NCBI GenBank assembly: GCA_963971285.1
Contig: OZ020249.1
Coordinates: 3,720,001 to 3,784,000, forward strand
Direction: 5' to 3'
DNA length: 64,000 nt
DNA from: Astropecten irregularis
Taxonomy: Eukaryota; Echinodermata; Asteroidea; Paxillosida; Astropectinidae
In this document: one piece after another, positions 3,421-63,872 of the stretch
Layout: each line of letters starts with the position of its first letter
Position numbering within the stretch: position 1 is the first letter of the stretch
Position numbers and translations under genes: made by a program
Notes under the pieces: model-generated
Seen by the model: only the letters and a program-made list of their open reading frames with translations
What the model was told of the DNA's origin: nothing
The model's database searches: none

Positions 3421-3747
3421 GCCAAGCAGAAGGAGATGACAATCAACAGTCATCGCATCGAGCGTGTCACCACCACTGCCAAGGACCTGACTGGCGATGC
3501 CACCATCTCCCGCTCGGCCCAGCGAGACATCAAAGCCTTCAAGCACTCCTGGGATGCGGTGGCCACGGCGATCAAAGACAAGGAGAAGCTGCTGGTCCGA
3601 GCCCTGGACAACGTCCCTCCACAGCGGTACATCGAGGCCATGAGGGCACTGACCCAGTGGTTGCAGAGTGTTGAGGCGGTGCTCAGGTCTGAGGAGTTCT
3701 TTGTGACAGAAGTGGATGAACTGGAAGACCAACTTCAGAAGTACAAG
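3421..3747 (+). CDS. DMD: Dystrophin exon 4: spectrin repeat
   Basis: The acceptor follows TTTGTTTAG at 3420 and donor GTATTT is at 3748; 109 codons, about one repeat length. Helix C carries FKHSWDAV and the next helix A carries LTQWLQSVEAVLRSEEF. An antisense open frame over the same bases is a composition shadow. Confidence 0.9.
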
Positions 3748-6472: not shown

Positions 6473-6646
6473 GCACTGACCGATGACATCCAGACCCTAC
6501 AGCAGAACATGGACAACATCAACGTGACTGGACGCAAGCTGGCCAAAGAGGGCGACCCACCATTTGTGGCCCGCATCTCCTCCGAGCTGGGGGAGCTCCA
6601 GACCAAATGGACCAAGGTCACCAAGCTGGCCAGAGAACAACGACAG
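6473..6646 (+). CDS. DMD: Dystrophin exon 7: spectrin helices B-C
   Basis: Acceptor TGAAG ends at 6472; 58 codons. LGELQTKWTKVTKL is the helix-C tryptophan core. The donor is GTCAAG at 6647, with C at +3, the weakest donor in the set, but the reading frame and the next exon support it. Confidence 0.82.
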
Positions 6647-16208: not shown

Positions 16209-16590
16209 CATTTTTGACACATTGGTTTCATTTTGGACACATTGGTTTCATTTTGGACACATTGGTTTCATTTCGGACACATTGGTTTCATTTTGAACAC
16301 ATTGGTTTCATTTCGGATACATTGGTTTCATTTCGGACACATTGGTTTCATTTCGGACACATTGGTTTCATTTTGAACACATTGGTTTCATTTCGGACAC
16401 ATTGGTTTCATTTTGAACACATTGGTTTCATTTCGGACACATTGGTTTCATTTCGGACACATTGGTTTCATTTCGGACACATTGGTTTCATTTCGGACAC
16501 ATTGGTTTTCCTTTTGGACACATTGGTTTCATTTCGGACACATTGGTTTCATTTCGGACACATTGGTTTTCCTTTTGGACACATTTAATT
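16209..16590. repeat. Minisatellite, 20-bp unit (ACATTGGTTTCATTTCGGAC)
   Basis: About 19 near-perfect tandem copies alternate CGGAC/TGGAC/TGAAC endings; degenerate copies continue to about 16770. Unit length 20 leaves open frames in three phases, which are not genes. In the intron before exon 17. Confidence 0.95.
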
Positions 16591-16813: not shown

Positions 16814-16972
16814 AAACTGTTGGAGGAGGCGGAGGATCTGGCCGTCCGTGTCGAGGAGATCCGAGATCAGGCTCTGGAACTCTTCCGTCTGGGCGGAGAT
16901 TGTCGACGCTCGACGGAGCCTGACCTGATCAGCCTCAATCAGAGATGGGAGGATGTTTGCCAAAGAGCTAAG
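16814..16972 (+). CDS. DMD: Dystrophin exon 17: helices B-C of repeat-15 equivalent
   Basis: Acceptor GTTCAG ends at 16813 and donor GTATGA is at 16973; 53 codons. DLISLNQRWEDVCQRAK corresponds to the vertebrate repeat-15 end, which reads ISELNHRF before the linker. The next exon therefore starts exactly at the vertebrate repeat 15-16 linker. Confidence 0.9.
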
Positions 16973-19122: not shown

Positions 19123-20343
19123 GAGAAGCAGCTGGAGCAGAAGAGGATTGTCGCCGAGATGGAGGGTGAAGCAAGACGGCTGGCCGAGCAGGAGTTGGAG
19201 AGAGCACGAGCAGAAGAGGAGAAGATTCAGAGAGAAAGAGAGCGTTTGAGGGAAGAACAGTTGCAGGAAGAGCTCTTGAAGGAAGAACATTTGAAGGAGG
19301 AACGTTTGAGAGAAGAGCGTTTGAAGCAAGAGCGTTTGGAACAAGAACGTTTGCAGCAAGAACGTTTGGAGCAAGAACGCTTGGCGCAAGAACACTTGGA
19401 GCAAGAGCGCTTAAAGGAAGAACGTTTGAAGGAGGAACGTTTGGAGCAAGAACGTTTGGAGCAAGAACGTTTGGAGCAAGAGCGTTTGGAGCAAGAGCGC
19501 TTGAAGGAAGAGCGCTTGAAGGAAGAACGTCTACAGGAAGAGCGTCAGAAGGAGGAGCGATTGAGAGAAGAGCGATTGAAGGAAGAGCGCTTGAAAGAAG
19601 AACGTTTACAGGAAGAACGTCAGAAGGAGGAGCGATTGAGAGAAGAGCGCTTGAAGGAAGAACGTTTGCTGGAAGAACGTTTACAGGAAGAGCGTTTGAA
19701 GGAAGAGCGTTTGAATGAGGAGCGTTTGAGAGAAGAACGTTTGCAGGAAGAACGTTTGCAGGAAGAAATGCTGAGAGAACAAGAAAGACTGGAAGCAGAA
19801 AGAGAGAAGGAAAGATTGAAACAACAAGAGGAGGAACCAGAAGACATCGAACAGCCCATCGCGATGGAATCAGTAGATATTGTGGAGACATCTCCTGAAT
19901 TTGATGACACCGAGGACGCCGAGACATCTGCCCAGATCTCTGAGGACCTCGTCGACGAAGTCATGCAGTGTGAATCCATCGGTGACCTGGAGGAGCAGAC
20001 TGACCTGTCTTCCCTGCAGTGGGTCGTACCGTCAAGGTTAGCACCCCCGGAAGATATCGAGTCCTCGGACAAGACGGATTCCTTGATCAACGAGCAGTGC
20101 GAGCAGCAGCTTGTGGAGACGGAGGAATCAGGATTAAGTCTGGAGGAGGTGCTGGGCAGTATTGATAAGGAGATCGAAGACTCGGGCAAGATGGAACTTG
20201 AGGAGACAGAGAGGCATGTAGCGGACTTTCACATCATCTTAGAGCAGACCAATCAAGCTATCAGTATGTGTGACCATCGGCTGGTAGATGGCATGGACCT
20301 ACGGCCAGAGGACTTTGACCAGGAGGTTGAACTGACCATCCAG
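19123..20343 (+). CDS. DMD: Dystrophin exon 18: charged ER/K helix insertion, acidic linker and helix A of repeat-16 equivalent
   Basis: Acceptor CACAG ends at 19122 and donor GTAAGA is at 20344; 407 codons, phase 0 both ends, by far the largest exon. Exon residues 1-40 are a Glu/Arg-rich helix (EKQLEQKRIVAEMEG onward). Residues 42-220 are about 35 pentapeptides of the form L-x-E-E-R. Residues 221-236 are EREKERLKQQ-like. Residues 237-360 are acidic and probably disordered. The last 45 (HVADFHIILEQTNQ, then LRPEDFD) match helix A of vertebrate repeat 16 (SDIQKLLEPL, LKEEDFN). The insertion sits where vertebrates have a short linker. The frame joins perfectly to exons 17 and 19, so I see no reason to treat it as a separate gene. 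Confidence 0.9.
19246..19785 (+). repeat. Coding minisatellite, 15-bp unit, about 36 copies, inside exon 18
   Basis: Tandem 15-mers of the type TTGAAGGAAGAACGT encode LKEER, with variants LEQER, LQEER, LREER and QKEER. The unit is five codons, so copy number changes keep frame. A 75-bp higher-order block (five pentads, LKEER-LQEER-QKEER-LREER-LKEER) occurs twice in a row near 19512-19650. An open frame on the other strand is a by-product of the repeat. Confidence 0.95.
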
Positions 20344-20916: not shown

Positions 20917-21222
20917 GATACCGACGAAGCCATTGGCTCCCTACAGCCTGACGTGGAGAACCTCATACTTCAGGGAGAGGCCCTGATCACAGAGACCAAG
21001 AAGCACAATGCTAAGCAGGCCCGACAGCTTGAGGTCAGACTGGGCTCGCTGCGCAACCACTGGAACACGCTGCAGGCGGACGCTGGCAAGCGACGGGATG
21101 CTCTGAGGGAGGCCGTGCCCAGATGGCATAGGTACCAGGTAGAGGTCAAGGAGACAGAAGAATGGATGGAGACCATGAGAGCACGTATGAAGGAGGCCAA
21201 AGAGGATCAAGATACCATGAAG
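20917..21222 (+). CDS. DMD: Dystrophin exon 19: repeat-16 helices B-C and start of repeat 17
   Basis: Acceptor ATGCAG ends at 20916 and donor GTAAGT is at 21223; 102 codons. LRNHWNTLQADAGKRRDAL and RWHRYQVEVKETEEWMET match the vertebrate LKDLRSQRRKKAL and HQWYQYKRQADDLL segments. In vertebrates this is the repeat 16-17 module that binds nNOS; whether binding exists here is unknown. Followed by a 21.6-kb intron. Confidence 0.92.
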
Positions 21223-24954: not shown

Positions 24955-26346
24955 TTAAAACAGACTCTCATACATGTCATCGGCTTTCTCAGGCAGTCGA
25001 CGTTTGGTGTCCAGGAGGTTCCGGTTCCTGCTATTTTCATCCTCAGTTGCCTGTTTGGCTGAGGTGTTGAGATTTTGGTACCTCATGCCAGCTTCGTCTG
25101 CAGCCTGGTTGGCATAGGTGCTAAGATTCAGGTACATGCCACCATCAGCTTCTGCAGGCAGCCTGTTGGCTGTGCGAGGCACCCTATGGGACATGGACTT
25201 CTTTTGTTTGATTTTCCACAAGTAGACAACAAGGAGTGCTTCGAGTAGGAGAAGAAAAAGACCTCCCAGCATTCCTCCAACAACATGTAAGGTGGTGGCC
25301 ATATTGACTGGTGTGCTGGCTTTTACATGTACAATCAGTAGTGCTTCTTGCCGACTGTGATAGGTGATCTCGTCCAGAACTGCTGCACATCTTATGGTCA
25401 CATAGTTAAAATCTTGGACTGAGACATTCAGAATCTGTAGCGTTTGGCCATCATGGCTAAGGTGATATGGACGTTGGACATCATCGTTAGTGGTCAGGTT
25501 CACGCTCACTGCTGAGCCATCACCCTTGTATATGTCCCACCTGTAATCAGGTTTCACTGGCCGCGTGGCCTTGACATCACATTTGAATTCTGCTGTCTCT
25601 CCTTCAAACAGAATAAAGAAAGATGGAGAGATGGAAGTCATCAAGGGAAGAGGCGTGAAAGAGCATCTTGGACCCCAGTTGAAGTCTGCTCCTGCCACGC
25701 AGATAAACTCTTGCATGTAGTCAGTTTCTTGCAGCTCTATCTGTGCTTGAAGCACATTTCCCGATTTGGTTTGTTGTGATAGAACTCTTAGTGGTCGGCC
25801 ACTTGGATCAGACCGGAGCCAGGTTAAGAGGCTTAGTGAATCATTTGATGAGAGAGAGCATCTCAGAGAAACATTTGCACCAATAGCGACAATCTTCGGA
25901 GGTTCTATGATGCATGATGGAGGAGTTGAGATAACATTCACTGTGGCATTTTCAGAGCCGACTTTAAGTAGGTGTTTGGTCTCTCTATAGAACATTCGGC
26001 AGAAGTATTGCCCACTGTCGTTAGGCTGTATGTTATTGATATTAAGTTGATACTGGTAGTTGATCAAGTCCAGTGCAGCTGTCATTCGATCCTGAAAATC
26101 TGTCTTGACTGAGCGACAACTAACCACCATTATGTCTCTTGAAGTCCCATTGGCTTTCATCCATTTGAGCCTTGGCGAAGTACAATTTTTGCTCATTTGA
26201 TCATTCCAACAGGTTAATGTAACATTACTCCCTTTAACAACTGTCACATTCCGAGGCTGGAGTGTGTACCCTTGACAGTCCTCTGGGTACAATCCTGTAG
26301 CTATGATGATCAGGCCCACAAGAGAAGACGCACAAAGAGACAACAT
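24955..26346 (-). CDS. Ig-domain transmembrane receptor, paralogue A (single exon)
   Basis: 463 residues. The start is the ATG at 26346, giving MLSLCASSLVGLIIIATG, a good signal peptide; the open frame upstream begins only with GTG. Three Ig-like domains follow: domain 1 (NVTLTCW to DSGQYFCR), domain 2 (VSLRCSL to EFICVAG), domain 3 (AEFKCDV to TIRCAAV). Many N-x-S/T sites. The membrane helix at about 350-377 is followed by KIKQKK and an 86-residue tail with MYLNL, RYQNL and MYESL (YxxL). Likely a cell-surface, probably immune-type receptor signalling through SH2 proteins; ligand unknown. It lies antisense inside the dystrophin intron. No introns are needed, unlike typical Ig receptors. Confidence 0.85.
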   Translation of the reverse strand: MLSLCASSLVGLIIIATGLYPEDCQGYTLQPRNVTVVKGSNVTLTCWNDQMSKNCTSPRLKWMKANGTSRDIMVVSCRSVKTDFQDRMTAALDLINYQYQLNINNIQPNDSGQYFCRMFYRETKHLLKVGSENATVNVISTPPSCIIEPPKIVAIGANVSLRCSLSSNDSLSLLTWLRSDPSGRPLRVLSQQTKSGNVLQAQIELQETDYMQEFICVAGADFNWGPRCSFTPLPLMTSISPSFFILFEGETAEFKCDVKATRPVKPDYRWDIYKGDGSAVSVNLTTNDDVQRPYHLSHDGQTLQILNVSVQDFNYVTIRCAAVLDEITYHSRQEALLIVHVKASTPVNMATTLHVVGGMLGGLFLLLLEALLVVYLWKIKQKKSMSHRVPRTANRLPAEADGGMYLNLSTYANQAADEAGMRYQNLNTSAKQATEDENSRNRNLLDTKRRLPEKADDMYESLF

Positions 26347-26640
26347 CGTGAGGAATTGGAAATTGCCAGAAATCACTGCCCCTTTGAAAGCTTAGAAATG
26401 TAGTCCTGCCAAAATCTTGTATTTTAGTAAATACATGCAGTGGGTAACCGATTGAGTTCTTGTTAAGTATTAGTCCATTCACATTGAAGGATTCAAGTCA
26501 GTGAAACCATTGAGTATTTGACATTGTTGCCTCAGCTGAGTTCAGTTGCATCAAGACGAAGCACAGTAAACTGCAAAGCATTTTAAAGAAATTTCAGCAC
26601 TTGATGTATTTTATGTGAGCATTTCCTTGTTTTTGTTCAT
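26347..26640 (-). promoter_or_regulatory. Conserved 5' flank of receptor A
   Basis: About 270 bp upstream of the ATG are shared with paralogues B and C (for example GTAACCGATTGAGTTCTTGT and TTTGACATTGTTGCCTCA). Probably 5' UTR and promoter carried with each duplication. No clear TATA box was identified. Confidence 0.5.
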
Positions 26641-29115: not shown

Positions 29116-30543
29116 TTATTGTCCGCTAAAATTCTCATACATGTCATCGGCTTCCTCACTCGGATGATGCTTGGTATCTGGGAGGTTCTGGTAAATGCTG
29201 TTGTCATTCTCAGTAGCCTGGTTGTCGTCGGGGGTGATGAGACTCTGGTATCTCCTGCCAGCTTCCTCAGTGGCCTGGTTGGCATAGGTGCTAAGATTCA
29301 GGTACATGCCATCATCAACTTCATCAGTCGGCTCATTGGCAGAGCAAGGTACTCTTTGCTCTCTGTTTGGTTGAAAGTACACTACTCCATGAGACATGGA
29401 CTTCTTTTGTTTTCTTTTCCACACGTAGACAGCAAGGAGTGCTCCGAGAAGGAAAAGAAAAAGACCTCCCAGCATTCCTCCAACAATATGTAAGGTGGTG
29501 GCCATATTTACTGGTGTGCCGGCTTTTACATGTACAATCAGTAGTGCTTCTTGCCGACTTTGATAGGTGATCTTGTCCAGAACTGCTGCGCATCTTATGA
29601 TAACATTGTTAAAGTCTTGGACTGAGACATTCAGAATCTGTAGCGTTTGGCCATCATGGCTAAGGTGATATGGACGTTGGACGTCATCGTTAGTGGTCAG
29701 GTTCACGTCCACCCCTGAGCCATCACCCTTGTATATGTCCCACCTGTACTCTAGTTTCACTGGCCGCGTGGCCTTGACGTCACATTTGAATTTTGCTGTC
29801 TCTCCTTCAAACAGAATCAAGAAAGATGGAGAGATGGAAGTCATCAAGGGAAGAGGCGTTAAAGAGCATCTTGGACCCCCGTTGAAGTCTGCTCCTGCCA
29901 CGCAGATAAACTCTTGCATGAAGTCAGTTTCTTGCAGCTCTATCTGTGCTTGAAGCACATCTCCCGATTTGGTTTGTTGTGATAGAACTCTTAGTGGATG
30001 GTCACTTGGATCAGACCGGAGCCAGGTTAAGAAGCTTAGTGAATCATTTGATGAGAGAGAACATCTCAGAGAAATGGTCGCACCAATAGCGACAATCATT
30101 AGAGGTTCCATGGCACATGATGGAGGAGTCAAGATAACGTTTACTGTGGCCTTCATAGAGTTGATTTCTGAATGACTAATCGGGAAGTACATTCGACAGA
30201 AGTATTGCCCACTATCATGTGGCTGTGTGTTCCTGATGTTAAGCTGATACAGTTTGTTAGTTTCATCCAATGTTGTTGTCATTCGATCCGTGAAATATCT
30301 CTGGACTTGGTGACAAGTAACCACCCTGGTGTCTCTTTGAATCCCATCACCTTTTATCCATCGTAGCCTTGGCTCAGAACAGCCACTTGTCATTGAATCA
30401 GACCAACAGGTTAATGTTACATTATTCCCTTCAACAACTGTCACACTTTGTGGATGCAGCGTGTACCATTGACAGTCCACTGGGTACAATCCTGTAGCTA
30501 TGATGATCAGACCCACAAGAGAAGACACACAAAGAGACAACAT
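29116..30543 (-). CDS. Ig-domain transmembrane receptor, paralogue B (single exon, shortened C-terminus)
   Basis: 475 residues from the ATG at 30543 (MLSLCVSSLVGLIIIATG signal peptide). Same plan as paralogue A: three Ig-like domains with cysteine pairs (VTLTCW/YFCRMY, ISLRCSL/FICVAG, AKFKCDV/IIRCAAV), a membrane helix near residues 350-375, then KRKQKK. The 100-residue tail has VYFQP (YxxP), MYLNL, RYQSL, SIYQNL (fits the S-x-Y-x-x-L ITIM form) and MYENF. The stop at 29116-29118 appears premature: 20 further sense codons lie in frame to 29053. Function inferred: activating or inhibitory surface receptor. Confidence 0.85.
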   Translation of the reverse strand: MLSLCVSSLVGLIIIATGLYPVDCQWYTLHPQSVTVVEGNNVTLTCWSDSMTSGCSEPRLRWIKGDGIQRDTRVVTCHQVQRYFTDRMTTTLDETNKLYQLNIRNTQPHDSGQYFCRMYFPISHSEINSMKATVNVILTPPSCAMEPLMIVAIGATISLRCSLSSNDSLSFLTWLRSDPSDHPLRVLSQQTKSGDVLQAQIELQETDFMQEFICVAGADFNGGPRCSLTPLPLMTSISPSFLILFEGETAKFKCDVKATRPVKLEYRWDIYKGDGSGVDVNLTTNDDVQRPYHLSHDGQTLQILNVSVQDFNNVIIRCAAVLDKITYQSRQEALLIVHVKAGTPVNMATTLHIVGGMLGGLFLFLLGALLAVYVWKRKQKKSMSHGVVYFQPNREQRVPCSANEPTDEVDDGMYLNLSTYANQATEEAGRRYQSLITPDDNQATENDNSIYQNLPDTKHHPSEEADDMYENFSGQ

Positions 30544-30800
30544 CGTGAGGAATTGGAAATTGCCAGAAATCACTAGTCTGTCAACAGTTAGAGAATGTAG
30601 TCAGATTCTTCTTTTCAACTAGTACACTCGGGTGCAGTAGTTAACCGATTGAATTCTTGTGAAGTATTAGTCCATTCACATTGAAGCATTCATAGTCAGT
30701 GGAACCATTGAGTATTTGACATTGTTGCCTCAGCTGAGAACAGTTGCATCAAGACGAAGCACAGTAAACTGCAAAGCATTTTGAGGAAATTTCTACACGT
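30544..30800 (-). promoter_or_regulatory. Conserved 5' flank of receptor B
   Basis: Closely similar to the flank of receptor C at 36569-36820 (TAGTCTGTCAACAGTT, then TTCTTCTTTTCAACTA) and less so to A. This supports B and C being the closer pair upstream. Confidence 0.5.
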
Positions 30801-34561: not shown

Positions 34562-36568
34562 TTAAGGATTCTTCTTTTTACCTCTGTATGGTCTGGCATA
34601 GACTGCATCTCCACCAGCAGCCCTTGTTTCTGTTTGGTGGCCAAAGTCCAGATCAGCATATTCTAGTGTGTCTTCATTTGTGGACGTATCTGGTTGGAGG
34701 AGGTTTGGTAAAGAAGCATGCTTCTTCCTTGGATCTGCTTCCGCTTCAGTATGTGAAGATGACTCGGCAGTCACTCCTGGGTGATGGACATTGTCCTGAG
34801 TAGTCCCTGACATTTTGAAGTGTTTGATCTCTCCATATTTGGTCTTGCTCGGAAGGGCATATAGATCTTCCACAGACTTGGTGGCTTGGTCCCTGCCTCT
34901 GCGTCCAGTTGATGGTTCTTGTTGCCGCTGGGTGTCCTGGACTTCCAGAGACTCTGTAGATGCGTCTTTGTCTCTGCCTCTTGCTGGTTGTTCATCATGC
35001 CTCTCAGCTTGCATTGCTGATGGCAGTGTGAAGTGTTTGATCTTTCCGTGTTTTGTCTTGCTCGGAAGTGCATACAGGTCTTCCACAGACTTGGTAGCTT
35101 TGTCTCTGCCTCTGTGTCCAGTTGGTTGCTGCTGCTGGTTGTCCTTGACTTCCAGAGACTCTGTAGATGCGTCTTCGTCTGTGCCTCCTTGCATTGCTGA
35201 TGGCGATGTGAAGTGTTTGATCTCTCCTTGTTCGGACCTCCCCGGAAGCGCATACAAGTCTTCCTGAGACTTGGTAGATACGTCTCTGCCTCTGTGTCCA
35301 GTTTGTTGTTCACGTTGCTGCTCGGTCTCCTCTTGTTGGTCGCCAAGATTCTGGTACATGTCATCAGCTTCAGCCACCCTTGGCTGTCTGTTCGGTTCCT
35401 GGTACACTACCCTACTCGACATGTACGCCTTCTTTTGATTGCTTTTCCACACGTAGATAACGAGGAAGGCCACGAGAAGAACAAGGAAGAGGCTTCCCAG
35501 AATTCCTCCGATGAGATAGGAGGTGGTGGCCGTATTTACTGGTGTGCCGGCTTTTATATCTACCATCAGGAATGCTTCTTGGTGACTTTGATAGGTGATC
35601 TTGTTAAGAACTGCTGCGCATCTTATGCTTACATTGTTAAAGTCTTGGACTGAGACATTCAAAATTCTGAGAGTTTGGCCGTCTAGACTAAAGTGAAATG
35701 GATGTTGGACGTCATCCTTAGTGGTCAGGTTCATGCTCCACCTTGTGCCATCACCCTTGTGTATGTCCCACCTGTACTTAGGTTCCACTGGCCGTGTGGC
35801 CTCGATATCACATTTGAATTCTGCTGTCTCTCCTTCAGACAGAATCAACAAAGATGGAGAGACGGAAGTCATCAAGGGAAGAGGCGTGAAAGAGCATCTT
35901 GGACCCCCGTTGAAGTCTGCTCCTGCCACGCAGATAAACTCTTGCATGTAGTCAGTTTCTTGCAGCTCTATCTGTGCTTGAAGCACATTTCCCGATTTGG
36001 TTTGTTGTGATAGAACTCTTAGTGGTCGGCCACTTGGATCAGACCGGAGCCAGGTTAAGAGGAGTGGTGGATTGTTTGGTGAGAGAGAGCATTTCAGAGA
36101 AACGTTCGCACCAATAGCGACAATCAGTGGAGGTTCCATGGCACATGTTATTGAAGGAGAGATAACATTTACCGTGGCCTCATTAGAGTCGATTGTATTA
36201 TAAATTAGGTTGTAGTACATTCGACAGAAGTATTGCCCACTATCATTTACCTGTATGTTGTTGATATTAAGTTCATACAGTTTGTTAGTTACATCCAGTG
36301 TAGTTGTTATTCGATCCTGGTTTCTTTCAACTGTAAAACAAGCTACCACCCGAGTTTCTTTTTCAGTCCCATCAGCTTTTATCCATCGTAGCTTTGGAGA
36401 AGAACATTCTATGTTCATTGCACTAGACCAACAGGTTAATGTTACATTACTCCCTTTAACAACTGTCACACTTTGCGGATGCAGCGTGTACCATTGACAG
36501 TCCACTGGGTACAATCCTGTAGCTATGATGATCAGGCCCACAAGAGAAGACGCACAAAGAGACAACAT
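34562..36568 (-). CDS. Ig-domain transmembrane receptor, paralogue C, with long repeat-bearing tail (single exon)
   Basis: 668 residues from the ATG at 36568 (MLSLCASSLVGLIIIATG signal peptide). Three Ig-like domains (VTLTCW/YFCRMY, VSLKCSL/FICVAG, AEFKCDI/SIRCAAV), a membrane helix (GGILGSLFLVLLVAFLVIYV), then a tail of about 290 residues. The tail has three copies of a block with RGRD, then EDLYALP, then IKHF, and also VYQEP, VYARP (five YxxP in all, the Crk/Nck SH2-binding form), MYQNL and, near the end, LEYADL, which fits the ITIM consensus. Expected role: surface receptor recruiting SH2 adaptors and phosphatases. It keeps the full tail that relics after A imply was ancestral. Confidence 0.87.
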   Translation of the reverse strand: MLSLCASSLVGLIIIATGLYPVDCQWYTLHPQSVTVVKGSNVTLTCWSSAMNIECSSPKLRWIKADGTEKETRVVACFTVERNQDRITTTLDVTNKLYELNINNIQVNDSGQYFCRMYYNLIYNTIDSNEATVNVISPSITCAMEPPLIVAIGANVSLKCSLSPNNPPLLLTWLRSDPSGRPLRVLSQQTKSGNVLQAQIELQETDYMQEFICVAGADFNGGPRCSFTPLPLMTSVSPSLLILSEGETAEFKCDIEATRPVEPKYRWDIHKGDGTRWSMNLTTKDDVQHPFHFSLDGQTLRILNVSVQDFNNVSIRCAAVLNKITYQSHQEAFLMVDIKAGTPVNTATTSYLIGGILGSLFLVLLVAFLVIYVWKSNQKKAYMSSRVVYQEPNRQPRVAEADDMYQNLGDQQEETEQQREQQTGHRGRDVSTKSQEDLYALPGRSEQGEIKHFTSPSAMQGGTDEDASTESLEVKDNQQQQPTGHRGRDKATKSVEDLYALPSKTKHGKIKHFTLPSAMQAERHDEQPARGRDKDASTESLEVQDTQRQQEPSTGRRGRDQATKSVEDLYALPSKTKYGEIKHFKMSGTTQDNVHHPGVTAESSSHTEAEADPRKKHASLPNLLQPDTSTNEDTLEYADLDFGHQTETRAAGGDAVYARPYRGKKKNP

Positions 36569-36820
36569 CGTGACGAATTTGAAATTGCCAGAAATCACTA
36601 GTCTGTCAACAGTTTGGGAATGTAGTCAGATTCTTCTTTTCAACTAATACACACAGGCGCAATAGGTAACCGATTGAGTTCTTGTGAAGTTTTAGTCCAT
36701 TCACATTGAAGCATTCAAGTCAGTGATACCATTGAGTATTTGACATTGTTGCCTCACCTGACATCAGTTGCATATGAAGCATAGTGAACTGCTAAGCATT
36801 ATAAGGCAATTTCTGTACAT
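36569..36820 (-). promoter_or_regulatory. Conserved 5' flank of receptor C
   Basis: Shares about 250 bp with the flanks of A and B, including GTAACCGATTGAGTTCTTGT and ATTTGACATTGTTGCCTCA. Probably promoter/5' UTR. Confidence 0.5.
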
Positions 36821-42831: not shown

Positions 42832-43260
42832 GTCGTGCAAGAGGAGTTAGACCGGAAACAGAAGGACATCCAGCGACTCAACCGAGAATCCGAGGAGCTT
42901 GAGCAGAAGGGAGCCAAATCTGTCGTGGTGCCCTTACAGGTCAGGCTCAATGCCAAATGGCGGGAAATCGAGTCCCAGTTCCAGCAGTACCGTCGCCCTG
43001 TCGAGGAAGAGGTTCTCATTGAGAGGACTGTGACCACCATCCAGTCCACCTACCAGCTGGATGCCTCGCTGGAGGCCAACCTCACCTCGGCAGACTCGGC
43101 TGCAGTTGATGAGCCTCCTGTGGCCATGGCAGTCTTGGAGTTTCTGGAGGACGTGGAGAAGGTCTGGGTACGGATTCAGGAGGCCATGAAGGAGCTGGAA
43201 TCCCGGGAGCTGAACGGAGGAGCGTTTGATAGCTTCTCACTGCAAGAGGATCGCCTCAAG
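42832..43260 (+). CDS. DMD: Dystrophin exon 20: repeat-17 end and repeat-18 start
   Basis: Acceptor TTCAAG ends at 42831 and donor GTTAGT is at 43261; 143 codons, phase 0. EELDRKQKDIQRLNRESE, then LNAKWREIESQFQQYRR, then LQEDRLK at the end align collinearly with the vertebrate IDRELQKKKEELNAV, KRWREIESKFAQFRR and KQEESLK. The next exon was not found before the window end. Confidence 0.93.
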
Positions 43261-46135: not shown

Positions 46136-46688
<553 letters not shown>

Positions 46689-50319: not shown

Positions 50320-51595
50320 TTAAAACATGTGAGACCACTCTGAAGTTTGTAGGCGTGGTCTCTCTACTCACACCCTTAGCTGGATATTTTCAGTATAGGT
50401 GGGCATCATCATATTGTTCGAGTAGCACATAGAGTAGACCAGTTGTATGACAGTTTATGAGTAACATGATTCTGACTGGCTCGGCTCCCTAAAGCAAAGT
50501 CAGTTGACCACATCGTGGACCAACATCAGACAGTCATGCATGTTAAGGCCTTTTCACACTATCTCCTTTTCGATCCGTGTTGAAACCGACCCGGATCCAC
50601 CTCGGTTCAGCCCGTCAAGTTTTTGAACCGGATCAAAGAGATGCAACATTCACACTTTTATGGTGAACCGGCTCATACAACACAGATCACGCGTCACACG
50701 GCCCAGAATGCAGTTTGGAACCGAGTTGGGATTTTCTATCACATTGACTAACATTTAGGCAGGTCTCCCCTGAAGTATATGTATGCAGTGCAGTTCAGGA
50801 AAACATATCTTCTTAAAGCATGCCTAAAGACATGGCTGAATTTTAGGCAGTATAACACTGGATATACCAAAACCTTTTTAAAAATTTCCAAATATTGAAA
50901 AAAAATTCTTTCTTTTTAATTTATTGTATTAAAAAAGAGTCCATCAGAGACATGGCATTTTCCTTCATGTAAAGAAATTTGATCTCCTATATCTCACTTC
51001 AGGTGGCATCATGTTACCAAAAAAATATCCCCCTTCAGCAAAAAAATATCCCTCTTCAGCAAAAAAATATCCAAACAAAAAAAAGAGGGAATTTTTTTGT
51101 TTTTGTGCCCGCAAAGAGTTGAATGCAATTAATAGGCTTAGCGCTTGAAAGTGTTGTATTACCAGTAGTGAATCCATTACAAAAACAAACCGCTTTGAAA
51201 CATGGAGGTAAAATGTATGCTTTATTTTACTGCAGGATGCTCAGTTTCCTCTGCTTAAAGTTCATCGTTCCATCCTGAGATGTGATCGGATCCGATTTCC
51301 CTTTTTTTAAGTGGAATGTACTGTGAAACAAGCACTTGCCCACACACACTCAATGGATCATCTTTCCCAATGTTTTTTGTTTCCAACTTTTCTATAGCAA
51401 AACCTCTTTTACCAGTATTCTCCATCCAGTGTATATTTACTCGGAGGAAAACTTGTGGAATTTAAAAAAGATCGTTAAATTCTGTGCATGGCAAGAAGAA
51501 TTGCTAAATATATAGAAAGGTTGTCCAGTAGTTTTGAGTGATATGACGTGTTGGAGTTGAGTCCTCAAATCCTAGTACTTCAAGGTCAGAGTACT
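50320..51595. other. Intron sequence, no gene seen
   Basis: Contains the repeat copy at 50547-50650 and three AAAAAAATATCC words at 51020-51075. No coding signal. Confidence 0.5.
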
Positions 51596-54500
51596 GGGCC
51601 GAGACTGCGCACATTACTGGCGAGTGCGAGTCCAGGGTATCGAGTACGAGTATATATATTTAAGGTCGAGTAAAGGGCCGAGACTGCGCACATTACTGGC
51701 GAGTGCGAGTCCAGGGTATCAAGTACGAGTATATATATTTAAGGTCGAGTAAAGGGCCGAGACTGCGCACATTACTGGCGAGTGCGAGTCCAGGGTATCG
51801 AGTACGAGTATATATATTTAAGGTCGAGTAAAGGGCCGAGACTGCGCACATTACTGGCGAGTCCGAGTCCAGGGTATCGAGTACGAGTATATATATTTAA
51901 GGTCGAGTAAAGGGCCGAGACTGCGCACATTACTGGCGAGTGCGAGTCCAGGGTATCAAGTACGAGTATATATATTTAAGGTCGAGTAAAGGGCCGAGAC
52001 TGCGCACATTACTGGCGAGTGCGAGTCCAGGGTATCGAGTACGAGTATATATATTTAAGGTCGAGTAAAGGGCCGAGACTGCGCACATTACTGGCGAGTG
52101 CGAGTCCAGGGTATCGAGTACGAGTATATATATTTAAGGTCGAGTAAAAGGCCGAGACTGCGCACATTACTGGCGAGTGCGAGTCCAGGGTATCGAGTAC
52201 GAGTATATATATTTAAGGTCGAGTAAAGGGCCGAGACTGCGCACATTACTGGCGAGTGCGAGTCCAGGGTATCGAGTACGAGTATATATATTTAAGGTAG
52301 AGTAAAGGGCCGAGACTGCGCACATTACTGGCGAGTGCGAGTCCAGGGTATCGAGTACGAGTATATATATTTAAGGTCGAGTAAAGGGCCGAGACTGCGC
52401 ACATTACTGGCGAGTGCGAGTCCAGGGTATCAAGTACGAGTATATATATTTAAGGTCGAGTAAAGGGCCGAGACTGCGCACATTACTGGCGAGTGCGAGT
52501 CCAGGGTATCGAGTACGAGTATATATATTTAAGGTCGAGTAAAGGGCCGAGACTGCGCACATTACTGGCGAGTCCGAGTCCAGGGTATCGAGTACGAGTA
52601 TATATATTTAAGGTCGAGTAAAGGGCCGAGACTGCGCACATTACTGGCGAGTGCGAGTCCAGGGTATCAAGTACGAGTATATATATTTAAGGTCGAGTAA
52701 AGGGCCGAGACTGCGCACATTACTGGCGAGTGCGAGTCCAGGGTATCGAGTACGAGTATATATATTTAAGGTCGAGTAAAGGGCCGAGACTGCGCACATT
52801 ACTGGCGAGTGCGAGTCCAGGGTATCGAGTACGAGTATATATATTTAAGGTCGAGTAAAAGGCCGAGACTGCGCACATTACTGGCGAGTGCGAGTCCAGG
52901 GTATCGAGTACGAGTATATATATTTAAGGTCGAGTAAAGGGCCGAGACTGCGCACATTACTGGCGAGTGCGAGTCCAGGGTATCGAGTACGAGTATATAT
53001 ATTTAAGGTAGAGTAAAGGGCCGAGACTGCGCACATTACTGGCGAGTGCGAGTCCAGGGTATCGAGTACGAGTATATATATTTAAGGTCGAGTAAAGGGC
53101 CGAGACTGCGCACATTACTGGCGAGTGCGAGTCCGAGTCCAGGGTATCGAGTACGAGTATATATATTTAAGGTCGAGTAAAAGGCCGAGACTGCGCACAT
53201 TACTGGCGAGTGCGAGTCCAGGGTATCGAGTACGAGTATATATATTTAAGGTCGAGTAAAGGGCCGAGACTGCGCACATTACTGGCGAGTGCGAGTCCAG
53301 GGTATCGAGTACGAGTATATATATTTAAGGTCGAGTAAAAGGCCGAGACTGCGCACATTACTGGCGAGTGCGAGTCCAGGGTATCGAGTACGAGTATATA
53401 TATTTAAGGTAGAGTAAAGGGCCGAGACTGCGCACATTACTGGCGAGTGCGAGTCCAGGGTATCGAGTACGAGTATATATATTTAAGGTAGAGTAAAGGG
53501 CCGAGACTGCGCACATTACTGGCGAGTGCGAGTCCGAGTCCAGGGTATCGAGTACGAGTATATATATTTAAGGTCGAGTAAAGGGCCGAGACTGCGCACA
53601 TTACTGGCGAGTGCGAGTCCAGGGTATCGAGTACGAGTATATATATTTAAGGTCGAGTAAAAGGGCCGAGACTGCGCACATTACTGGCGAGTGCGAGTCC
53701 AGGGTATCGAGTACGAGTATATATATTTAAGGTCGAGTAAAGGGCCGAGACTGCGCACATTACTGGCGAGTGCGAGTCCAGGGTATCAAGTACGAGTATA
53801 TATATTTAAGGTCGAGTAAACGGCCGAGAATGCGCACATTAGTGGCGAGTGCGAGTCCAGGGTATCGAGTACGAGTATATATATTTAAGGTCGAGTAAAC
53901 GGCCGAGAATGCGCACATTAGTGGCGAGTGCGAGTCCAGGGTATCGAGTACGAGTATATATATTTAAGGTCGAGTAAAGGGCCGAGACTGCGCACATTAC
54001 TGGCGAGTGCGAGTCCAGGGTATCGAGTACGAGTATATATATTTAAGGTCGAGTAAAGGGCCGAGACTGCGCACATTACTGGCGAGTGCGAGTCCAGGGT
54101 ATCGAGTACGAGTATATATATTTAAGGTCGAGTAGAGGGCCGAGACTGCGCACATTACTGGCGAGTGCGAGTCCAGGGTATCGAGTACGAGTATATATAT
54201 TTAAGGTCGAGTAGAGGGCCGAGACTGCGCACATTACTGGCGAGTGCGAGTCCAGGGTATCGAGTACCAGTATATATATTTAAGGTCGAGTAAAGGGCCG
54301 AGACTGCGCACATTACTGGCGAGTGCGAGTCCAGGGTATCAAGTACGAGTATATATATTTAAGGTCGAGTAAAGGGCCGAGACTGCGCACATTACTGGCG
54401 AGTGCGAGTCCAGGGTATCGAGTACGAGTATATATATTTAAGGTCGAGTAAAGGGCCGAGACTGCGCACATTACTGGCGAGTGCGAGTCCGAGTCCAGGG

Positions 54501-56448
54501 TATCGAGTACGAGTATATATATTTAAGGTCGAGTAAAAGGCCGAGACTGCGCACATTACTGGCGAGTGCGAGTCCAGGGTATCGAGTACGAGTATATATA
54601 TTTAAGGTCGAGTAAAGGGCCGAGACTGCGCACATTACTGGCGAGTGCGAGTCCAGGGTATCAAGTACGAGTATATATATTTAAGGTCGAGTAAAGGGCC
54701 GAGACTGCGCACATTACTGGCGAGTGCGAGTCCAGGGTATCAAGTACGAGTATATATATTTAAGGTCGAGTAAACGGCCGAGAATGCGCACATTACTGGC
54801 GAGTGCGAGTCCAGGGTATCGAGTACGAGTATATATATTTAAGGTCGAGTAAAGGGCCGAGACTGCGCACATTACTGGCGAGTGCGAGTCCAGGGTATCA
54901 AGTACGAGTATATATATTTAAGGTCGAGTAAAGGGCCGAGACTGCGCACATTACTGGCGAGTGCGAGTCCAGGGTATCAAGTACGAGTATATATATTTAA
55001 GGTCGAGTAAACGGCCGAGAATGCGCACATTACTGGCGAGTGCGAGTCCAGGGTATCGAGTACGAGTATATATATTTAAGGTCGAGTAAAAGGCCGAGAC
55101 TGCGCACATTACTGGCGAGTGCGAGTCCAGGGTATCGAGTACGAGTATATATATTTAAGGTCGAGTAAAGGGCCGAGACTGCGCACATTACTGGCGAGTG
55201 CGAGTCCAGGGTATCAAGTACGAGTATATATATTTAAGGTCGAGTAAACGGCCGAGAATGCGCACATTACTGGCGAGTGCGAGTCCAGGGTATCGAGTAC
55301 GAGTATATATATTTAAGGTCGAGTAAAGGGCCGAGACTGCGCACATTACTGGCGAGTGCGAGTCCAGGGTATCGAGTACGAGTATATATATTTAAGGTCG
55401 AGTAAAGGGCCGAGACTGCGCACATTACTGGCGAGTGAGTGTCCAGGGTATCGAGTACCAGTATATATATTTAAGGTCGAGTAAAGGGCCGAGACTGCGC
55501 ACATTACTGGCGAGTGCGAGTCCAGGGTATCGAGTACGAGTATATATATTTAAGGTCGAGTAGAGGGCCGAGACTGCGCACATTACTGGCGAGTGCGAGT
55601 CCAGGGTATCGAGTACCAGTATATATATTTAAGGTCGAGTAAAGGGCCGAGACTGCGCACATTACTGGCGAGTGCGAGTCCAGGGTATCGAGTACGAGTA
55701 TATATATTTAAGGTAGAGTAAAGGGCCGAGACTGCGCACATTAGTGGCGAGTGCGAGTCCAGGGTATCGAGTACGAGTATATATATTTAAGGTCAAGTAA
55801 AGGGCCGAGACTGCGCACATTACTGGCGAGTGCGAGTCCAGGGTAACGAGTACGAGTATATATATTTAAGGTTGAGTAAAGGGCCGAGACTGCGCACATT
55901 AGTGGCGAGTGCGAGTCCAGGGTATCGAGTACGAGTATATATATTTAAGGTCGAGTAAAAGGCCGAGACTGCGCACATAAGTGGCGAGTGCGAGTCCAGG
56001 GTATCGAGTACGAGTATATATATTTAAGGTCGAGTAAAAGGCCGAGACTGCGCACATTACTGGCGAGTGCGAGTCCGAGTCCAGGGTATCGAGTACGAGT
56101 ATATATATTTAAGGTCGAGTAAACGGCCGAGAATGCGCACATTAGTGGCGAGTGCGAGTCCAGGGTATCGAGTACGAGTATATATATTTAAGGTCGAGTA
56201 AAAGGCCGAGACTGCGCACATTAGTGGCGAGTGCGAGTCCAGGCTATCGAGTACGAGTATATATATTTAAGGTCGAGTAAAAGGCCGAGACTGCGCACAT
56301 TACTGGCGAGTGCGAGTCCAGGGTATCAAGTACGAGTATATATATTTCAGGTCGAGTAAAGGGCCGAGACTGCGCACATTACTGGCGAGTGCGAGTCCAG
56401 GGTATCAAGTACGAGTATATATATTTAAGGTCGAGTAGAGGGCCGAGT
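51596..56448. repeat. 79-bp minisatellite, about 61 copies
   Basis: Unit: GGGCCGAGACTGCGCACATT, ACTGGCGAGTGCGAGTCCAG, GGTATCGAGTACGAGTATAT, ATATTTAAGGTCGAGTAAA. Copies are 95-100% alike; variants are TCAAG for TCGAG, an extra GTCCGA, AAAGGCC, GGTAG and GAGAATGCG. Each unit has a TATATATATTTAA segment. The length 79 is not a multiple of three and no long frame survives. Confidence 0.97.
51675..53096. repeat. Higher-order repeat: nine-unit, 711-bp block present twice in tandem
   Basis: Variant markers repeat at exactly 711 bp: the TCCGAGTCC variant at 51861 and 52572, and GGTAGAG at 52297-52300 and 53008-53011. The order of TCAAG/TCGAG variants across nine units is identical in the two blocks. 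Confidence 0.85.

Positions 56449-63422: not shown

Positions 63423-63872
<450 letters not shown>

Follow-up and report, generated by a model that had tools for sequence, protein, structure and literature searches.

A ~365-residue insert with a predicted single alpha-helix at the repeat 13/14 junction of a dystrophin rod in Astropecten irregularis

We analysed a 64,000-nucleotide stretch of Astropecten irregularis DNA (the window; contig C12, positions 3720001-3784000) and searched the genome assembly of 475.7 Mb in 168 contigs. The forward strand of the window holds a chain of 18 exons, from 27-365 to 42832-43260, which make up 1,696 codons with no stop and with the frame kept throughout. Each of the chained exons is preceded by AG and followed by GT. 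When splice sites were scored with a simple matrix made for this analysis, those at 3421, 3747, 6473, 9143, 13825 and 14007 were weak (2-3), and the donors at 6646 and 10617, which score below 1, were set by eye. On the same matrix, the sites of the exon that concerns us here (the insert exon, Table 1) are among the better ones of the chain (acceptor 7.0, donor 7.2). This exon had been described as a single in-frame, phase-0 exon of 407 codons, and that description holds: its splice sites are canonical, it contains no stop and it fits the 18-exon chain.

Without the 365 codons of the insert, the chain encodes 1,331 residues (the other 17 window exons plus the last 42 codons of the insert exon). 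This query matched PDB chain 9c3c_D, a dystrophin of 3,696 residues, with E = 2.1e-180. The match forms three collinear blocks on 9c3c_D (residues 666-1418, 1445-1636 and 1711-1983), and the spectrin-repeat rod is in this way collinear with a known dystrophin; query residues 1-13, 952-983 and 1259-1331 lie outside the blocks. Downstream on the same strand, EF-hand_2 matches were found at C12:3886869-3886973 and C12:3887761-3887979. This EF-hand family is common to dystrophin, dystrobrevin and dystrotelin, and it occurs at three places in the genome (C12, C17 and C22). Directly before the first EF-hand exon match, and in frame with it, is the peptide HWDHPKMTEL, which we take to resemble the end of a WW region.

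We also searched with a human actin-binding domain, and two of its 25 matches fell on C12, both on the forward strand and upstream of the window exons. Both are short: the match at C12:3684160 spans 33 residues at 73% identity (E 1.8e-7), and that at C12:3703236 spans 32 residues at 56% (E 0.001) with an internal stop. None of the 28 matches of a general CH-family search of the genome lay on C12. The exon had been assigned to dystrophin, and we agree, as the flanking chain matches 9c3c_D and EF-hand exons follow on the same strand.

A DNA search of the genome, which skips simple repeats, returned the insert exon itself as its one match. An origin as a second gene or a copied exon was rejected on this result, to which the same restriction on simple repeats applies. 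At the protein level, the translation of the exon gave 119 other low-scoring matches, one of them (C12:21354401) with better identity, 53%. Five of the seven protein-match loci that were fetched were inspected (L028, L029, L030, L033 and L034); they contain different repeats, without the GAACGTTTG motif of the insert array.

Table 1. Features of the dystrophin chain around the insert, in positions of the window
Feature	Positions	Strand	Description
Exon upstream of the insert	16814-16972	+	53 codons, phase 0; later part of repeat 13 (KLLEEAEDL...RWEDVCQRAK); AG/GT scores 7.7, 4.4
Insert exon	19123-20343	+	1,221 bp, 407 codons, phase 0-0, AG/GT, open throughout
Predicted single charged alpha-helix	19126-19812	+	Exon residues 2-230; from AlphaFold2, salt-pair and seam tests
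Pentad array	19261-19770	+	34 unbroken 5-residue units, consensus LKEER (15-bp tandem repeat)
Five-pentad tandem duplicate	19501-19650	+	19501-19575 repeated at 19576-19650; identical peptide, the two copies differ at 4 bases, each time silently
Acidic segment	19837-20217	+	127 residues (exon residues 239-365), net charge -36, pI 4.1
Start of repeat 14	20218-20343	+	42 codons (VADFHII...GMDLRPEDF...); GMDLRPEDF paired with GVNLKEEDF of 9c3c_D
Exon downstream of the insert	20917-21222	+	102 codons, phase 0; completes repeat 14 and opens repeat 15; AG/GT scores 5.0, 8.6
Last exon of the chain	42832-43260	+	143 codons; runs from the end of repeat 15 through the 15/16 linker into the start of repeat 16

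The exons on either side of the insert exon score as Pfam Spectrin with E values of 2e-4 (upstream) and 1.7e-5 (downstream), both below Pfam's own cut-off. The upstream exon aligns to 9c3c_D from residue 1721 and the downstream exon lies within the block 1711-1983, while a Pfam search of the last exon of the chain found no family. In the intron directly before the upstream exon is a 20-bp array (16216-16585, ~18 copies). The 21.6-kb intron between the downstream exon and the last exon contains three open frames on the opposite strand with Ig V-set/Ig_3 matches (24955-26391, 478 residues; 29116-30600, 494 residues; 34562-36625, 687 residues), which are mutually similar by eye. Beyond the chain, the window holds a 79-bp satellite (51582-56447, ~61 copies, 96% matches) and two 6-bp arrays, of GCTCAG at 46156-46386 (~39 copies) and of GGCTCC at 63454-63692 (~40 copies). 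Elsewhere in the assembly, a COX1 match without an internal stop (C131:32162-33484) perhaps marks a bacterial contig, and a COX1 stretch with seven TGA codons (C25:9951047-9952018) is perhaps a nuclear copy of mitochondrial DNA. On a mitochondrial contig of 16,335 bp, COX1 contains 4 AAA, 6 AGA, 10 ATA and 10 TGA codons. Translated with the echinoderm table, these become Asn, Ser, Ile and Trp at sites conserved in animals (DRNVNTTFFD is one example), whereas the invertebrate table would put Lys at the AAA sites; the code thus suits an echinoderm best, a hemichordate being less likely.

The preliminary description treated the whole exon as an insertion between two dystrophin repeats. The flanks are indeed dystrophin repeats, but the upstream flank does not end at DVC; the exon there ends ...WEDVCQRAK at position 16972. 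The insertion is long, but it is not 407 residues: because the last ~42 residues of the exon belong to repeat 14, the insert itself comes to ~365 residues. For the same reason, skipping of the exon would break repeat 14. The division into ~235 and ~125 acidic residues is upheld (~238 charged and ~127 acidic), and so are the pentads said to dominate the first part: L-x-E-E-R occurs in its strict form in 19 of the 34 and, relaxed to L-x-[EQ]-E-R, in 28.

In the printed alignment with 9c3c_D, IRDQA of the upstream exon pairs with IRDQA of the dystrophin, and the alignment continues through to the GMDLRPEDF of the insert exon. Searches with the junction stretch against 9c3c_D gave E values of 1.2e-4 for a 158-residue query and 3.1e-16 for a 336-residue query. 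Our own alignment of the junction stretches scored 117, compared with 15.7 +/- 6.0 for shuffled sequences, and the last 53 residues of the insert exon alone scored 44 (shuffled, 13.5 +/- 5.3); in both cases, none of 2,000 shuffles reached the score. By our own count on the alignment, the insert junction falls near residue 1775 of 9c3c_D, which on the UniProt residue ranges is where repeat 13 meets repeat 14. The last exon of the chain aligned by BLASTP (E 2e-13; 86 columns, 34% identical) to a human fragment that covers the end of repeat 15 and the 15/16 linker.

Judged by these alignments, the insert is at the repeat 13/14 junction, about two repeats upstream of the 15/16 linker. An earlier placement between repeats 15 and 16 was rejected because of the 9c3c_D alignments, the shuffle tests and the match of the last exon, not the insert exon, to the 15/16 linker fragment. 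The nNOS-binding repeats of dystrophin are 16 and 17. Therefore, an insert at 13/14 would not adjoin them, and the suggested neighbourhood with nNOS falls together with the 15/16 placement.

The named hinges of dystrophin, H1-H4, are shorter than the insert. Like a hinge, the insert is a non-spectrin segment that interrupts the rod; unlike a hinge, it has its junction outside the named ones and its first two thirds are predicted to be helical. The closest parallel in position is the vertebrate rod at repeats 13-14, where collinear repeats likewise lie on both sides of a natural non-helical break (PMC3162007). There the linker is short and proline-bearing (KTGKASIPL), whereas the gene described here has ~365 extra residues. 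In the modelling of human dystrophin reported by the same source, the R13-14 linker is drawn as a break, likely due to its proline, and counts as one of four non-helical linkers, and a 20-residue insertion is assigned to R15-16 (PMC3162007). Repeats 12-17 are described as acidic in all non-vertebrate dystrophins, in which the second actin-binding site is likely absent (PMC10293626). The window exons agree with this: the two that precede the insert have a pI of 5.1 and the two that follow it 4.9, and the earlier ones are likewise acidic (5.4). The insert is thus in a portion of the rod to which few functions are ascribed in invertebrates.

The first 238 residues of the insert exon are 37% Glu, 19.7% Arg, 17% Leu, 11% Gln and 7.6% Lys, with a net charge of -24, so that 65% of them are charged. 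In this richness in Glu, Lys and Arg the segment resembles single alpha-helix (SAH) domains. AlphaFold2, run on the exon alone, predicted one helix from residue 2 to residue 230. Block means of pLDDT were 80-95 over residues 1-220 and fell to 62 over 221-230; this run was made without an alignment (pTM 0.24), and the program may be too ready to turn charged repeats into helices. The predicted helix holds 118 favourable opposite-charge pairs at i+3/i+4, compared with 92.7 +/- 6.8 in shuffled sequences, and none of 400 shuffles reached that number. Like-charge pairs show the reverse (59, compared with 95.9 in shuffles).

Hydrophobic seam triplets are absent from the long helix (0, compared with 6.4 +/- 3.0; 1 of 400 shuffles was as low). 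The occupancy of positions a and d was 0.34, compared with 0.41 in shuffles; two sets of spectrin exons from the same gene reached 0.68 and 0.73. A heptad coiled coil thus found no support, with no seam triplet and an a/d occupancy below both the shuffles and the spectrin controls, and the earlier argument that Leu at pentad spacing would not build one is upheld. For the pentad core alone the tests were weaker: 2 of 400 shuffles reached its pair count and 13 of 400 had no more seams. The long helix has 0.52 salt pairs per residue; an AEEEKKK design has 1.38 and an idealised heptad 0.83. Because the idealised heptad coiled coil outscores our segment, pair density alone does not discriminate; the seam does. 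Stabilisation had been attributed to E-K/R pairs at i,i+4. Such pairs are present, but they occur at both i+3 and i+4 and at about two fifths of the density of the designed helix, and a pure LEQER repeat has no E-to-R pair at i+4.

These results favour the single-alpha-helix character that was first suggested: one helix in the AlphaFold2 prediction, an excess of salt pairs and no seam. We consider a single alpha-helix to be the best reading of the ~230-residue charged segment, on the strength of the structure prediction and the pair and seam counts. It would share with the SAH (ER/K) domains of caldesmon, myosins and INCENP a content of ~65% charged residues, an excess of i+3/i+4 pairs, a lack of a hydrophobic seam and a long predicted helix. 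It differs from them in its 5-residue pattern, its 17% Leu and its ~229 residues, and from a designed single helix in its lower salt-pair density. A fold search of the AlphaFold2 model in the PDB gave no match at E up to 10. A PDB sequence search with the helix alone gave four matches at E up to 0.1 (beta1 chains and variants, best 5.1e-4), which we regard as uninformative because the query is of low complexity.

SAH domains are reported to range from 40 to ~200 residues and to have a persistence length of ~15 nm (PMC5347031). The predicted helix, at 229 residues, would be ~34 nm long. This is close to the 35 nm of the stiff spacer that had been envisaged, but the stiffness was overstated: with a length of ~34 nm set against a persistence length of ~15 nm (PMC5347031), such a helix would be semi-flexible. 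Beyond the long helix, AlphaFold2 placed helices at exon residues 267-280, 318-336, 340-380 and 395-398. Stretches with pLDDT below 50 lie mostly at 229-315, and two others are found close to the end. Fifty-nine of the 127 acidic residues fall in predicted helices (267-280, 318-336 and 340-365), and the rest is low-confidence coil. Thus, of the proposed disordered acidic hinge, the acidity is plain but disorder is predicted for only about half of the segment.

The pentad array belongs to a tandem repeat at 19239-19767 with a period of 15 bp and 0% indels. As 15 is a multiple of 3, frames tend to stay open in such an array; the other frames are also long and open, and we do not count openness as evidence. 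The pattern of change among the 34 units is more informative. The coding frame had a pN/pS ratio of 0.22, whereas the two remaining forward frames gave 1.99 and 2.02 and the reverse-strand frames 1.00, 0.38 and 2.31. Relative to the pentad consensus, 35 codons were changed silently and 37 non-silently, when 53.0 +/- 3.5 non-silent codons were expected; none of 5,000 trials was as low, where each trial relocated the observed substitutions to different sites that carry the base concerned. The trials take every copy as an independent sample, which is not fully true because duplication has spread some of the changes. On this scheme, 13.4 +/- 2.9 occurrences of Pro, Gly or stop were expected, and the 34 units have none. 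Position 4 of the pentad is Glu in all 34 units, with its third base split 16/18.

The five-pentad duplicate adds little to this, because it was found by its identical peptide. The chance that all four of its differences would be silent is 0.0015 if all changes are considered and 0.022 for transitions only, and unit pairs at the same offset beside the block do contain non-silent changes. For comparison, the retrieved loci were scanned for other arrays whose period is divisible by 3, with no fewer than 8 copies, up to 2% indels and 60-97% matches. The eight that passed are a non-random sample: six were reached through similarity to the translated exon and two lie downstream of the window. Their best stop-free frames had pN/pS values of 0.71 (L028), 1.59 (L031), 0.10 (L033), 0.54 (L034), 0.83 (L009) and 0.93 (L018); L029 and L030 had no stop-free frame, and the lowest value in a frame that contains stops was 0.30 (L028). 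Of the eight, L033 alone falls below the insert array; its copies are 96% alike and it may or may not code. We regard the excess of silent changes as a sign, not proof, of selection on the encoded helix.

We propose a model in which the ~365-residue insert at 13/14 is a single alpha-helix plus an acidic tether that acts as a mechanical element, and we give this reading a probability of about 0.55. This dystrophin would have gained the extension at the 5' end of the exon that starts repeat 14. The first ~230 residues would run straight on from repeat 13 as one charged helix without a heptad seam, and the next ~127 residues would form an acidic, partly disordered tether back to repeat 14. The helix may have grown by expansion of the 15-bp repeat and its residues may then have been held by selection, as the changes among the copies suggest.

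Several other explanations of the insert were weighed. The array could be a minisatellite, a 15-bp repeat that expanded in a permissive linker and is tolerated there with no function of its own. Other long 15-bp arrays exist in this genome, the present array is a plain tandem repeat, its site corresponds to a natural break of the vertebrate rod (PMC3162007), and L033 has a similar or stronger silent excess. This explanation must nevertheless face the silent excess in the coding frame and the Glu that is kept at position 4 despite its varying third base; array growth also leaves the first 46, non-pentad residues and the acidic segment unexplained. We think it unlikely. A use of the exon that leaves most dystrophin without the helix, either as a first exon behind an internal promoter or through a variant 3' splice site, appears improbable. 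There are indeed two in-frame ATGs, one directly ahead of the acceptor (19105) and one within the exon (19159), internal promoters are known in dystrophin genes (PMC1790709), and the best internal acceptor, 20020, is in frame. Yet that acceptor scores 3.7 against 7.0 for the one at 19123 and would keep the end of the acidic segment, and skipping of the whole exon would remove the start of repeat 14.

The helix could instead pair with another charged helix or bind a cytoskeletal or membrane partner. As it is rich in Arg, it may self-associate, because of two Arg-rich designs the all-Arg one aggregated and the one with a pair of Arg in each repeat oligomerised (PMC5347031). Direct binding to microtubules is on record for the single helix of INCENP (PMC4571873), and 17% of the segment is Leu. 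Against self-association are the missing heptad seam, the low a/d occupancy and a natural single helix that stayed monomeric when enriched in Arg (M6R; PMC5347031), while the net charge of the segment would make the acidic surfaces of actin or tubulin less likely partners. This explanation seems rather unlikely to us.

Among possible roles of the insert, we consider a mechanical one the most likely, by analogy with single helices that have been measured. One such helix unfolded below 30 pN with no peak and was called a constant-force spring (PMC4183817), and dystrophin repeats are reported to unfold at 10-30 pN (PMC10293626). If the analogy holds, the insert would yield in the same or a lower range of force than its neighbours, unfolding and refolding gradually. 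It would add up to ~34 nm of semi-flexible helix and a loose tether to the rod, and gradual unfolding at low force would therefore lengthen the link between cortical actin and the membrane and buffer its tension. The neighbouring repeats need not be disturbed, because the vertebrate rod already has a non-helical break there. In sum, the rod with the insert may be longer and springier than the human one.

Long single helices and dystrophin are each known. Among the matches listed for open-licence PubMed Central, the titles and abstract openings gave neither a single helix nor a long insert for the rod of dystrophin, and the word dystrophin is absent from the main text of a eukaryote-wide survey of single helices (PMC5812594). 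A more specific and more doubtful idea is that the 34-pentad helix and its acidic tether form a built-in spring between repeats 13 and 14 that can be tuned by repeat number. If this were true, each 15-bp copy gained or lost would change the length by 0.75 nm; evolution could then adjust the tension and reach of the link from actin to membrane, which might even vary among individuals. A natural rod with a long single helix would show that the dystrophin rod accepts, and may use, another type of mechanical element. This bears on the open question of whether the length and compliance of the rod matter, and on the design of shortened dystrophins. Because one and the same rod can be compared with and without the insert, it also lends itself to a clean test.
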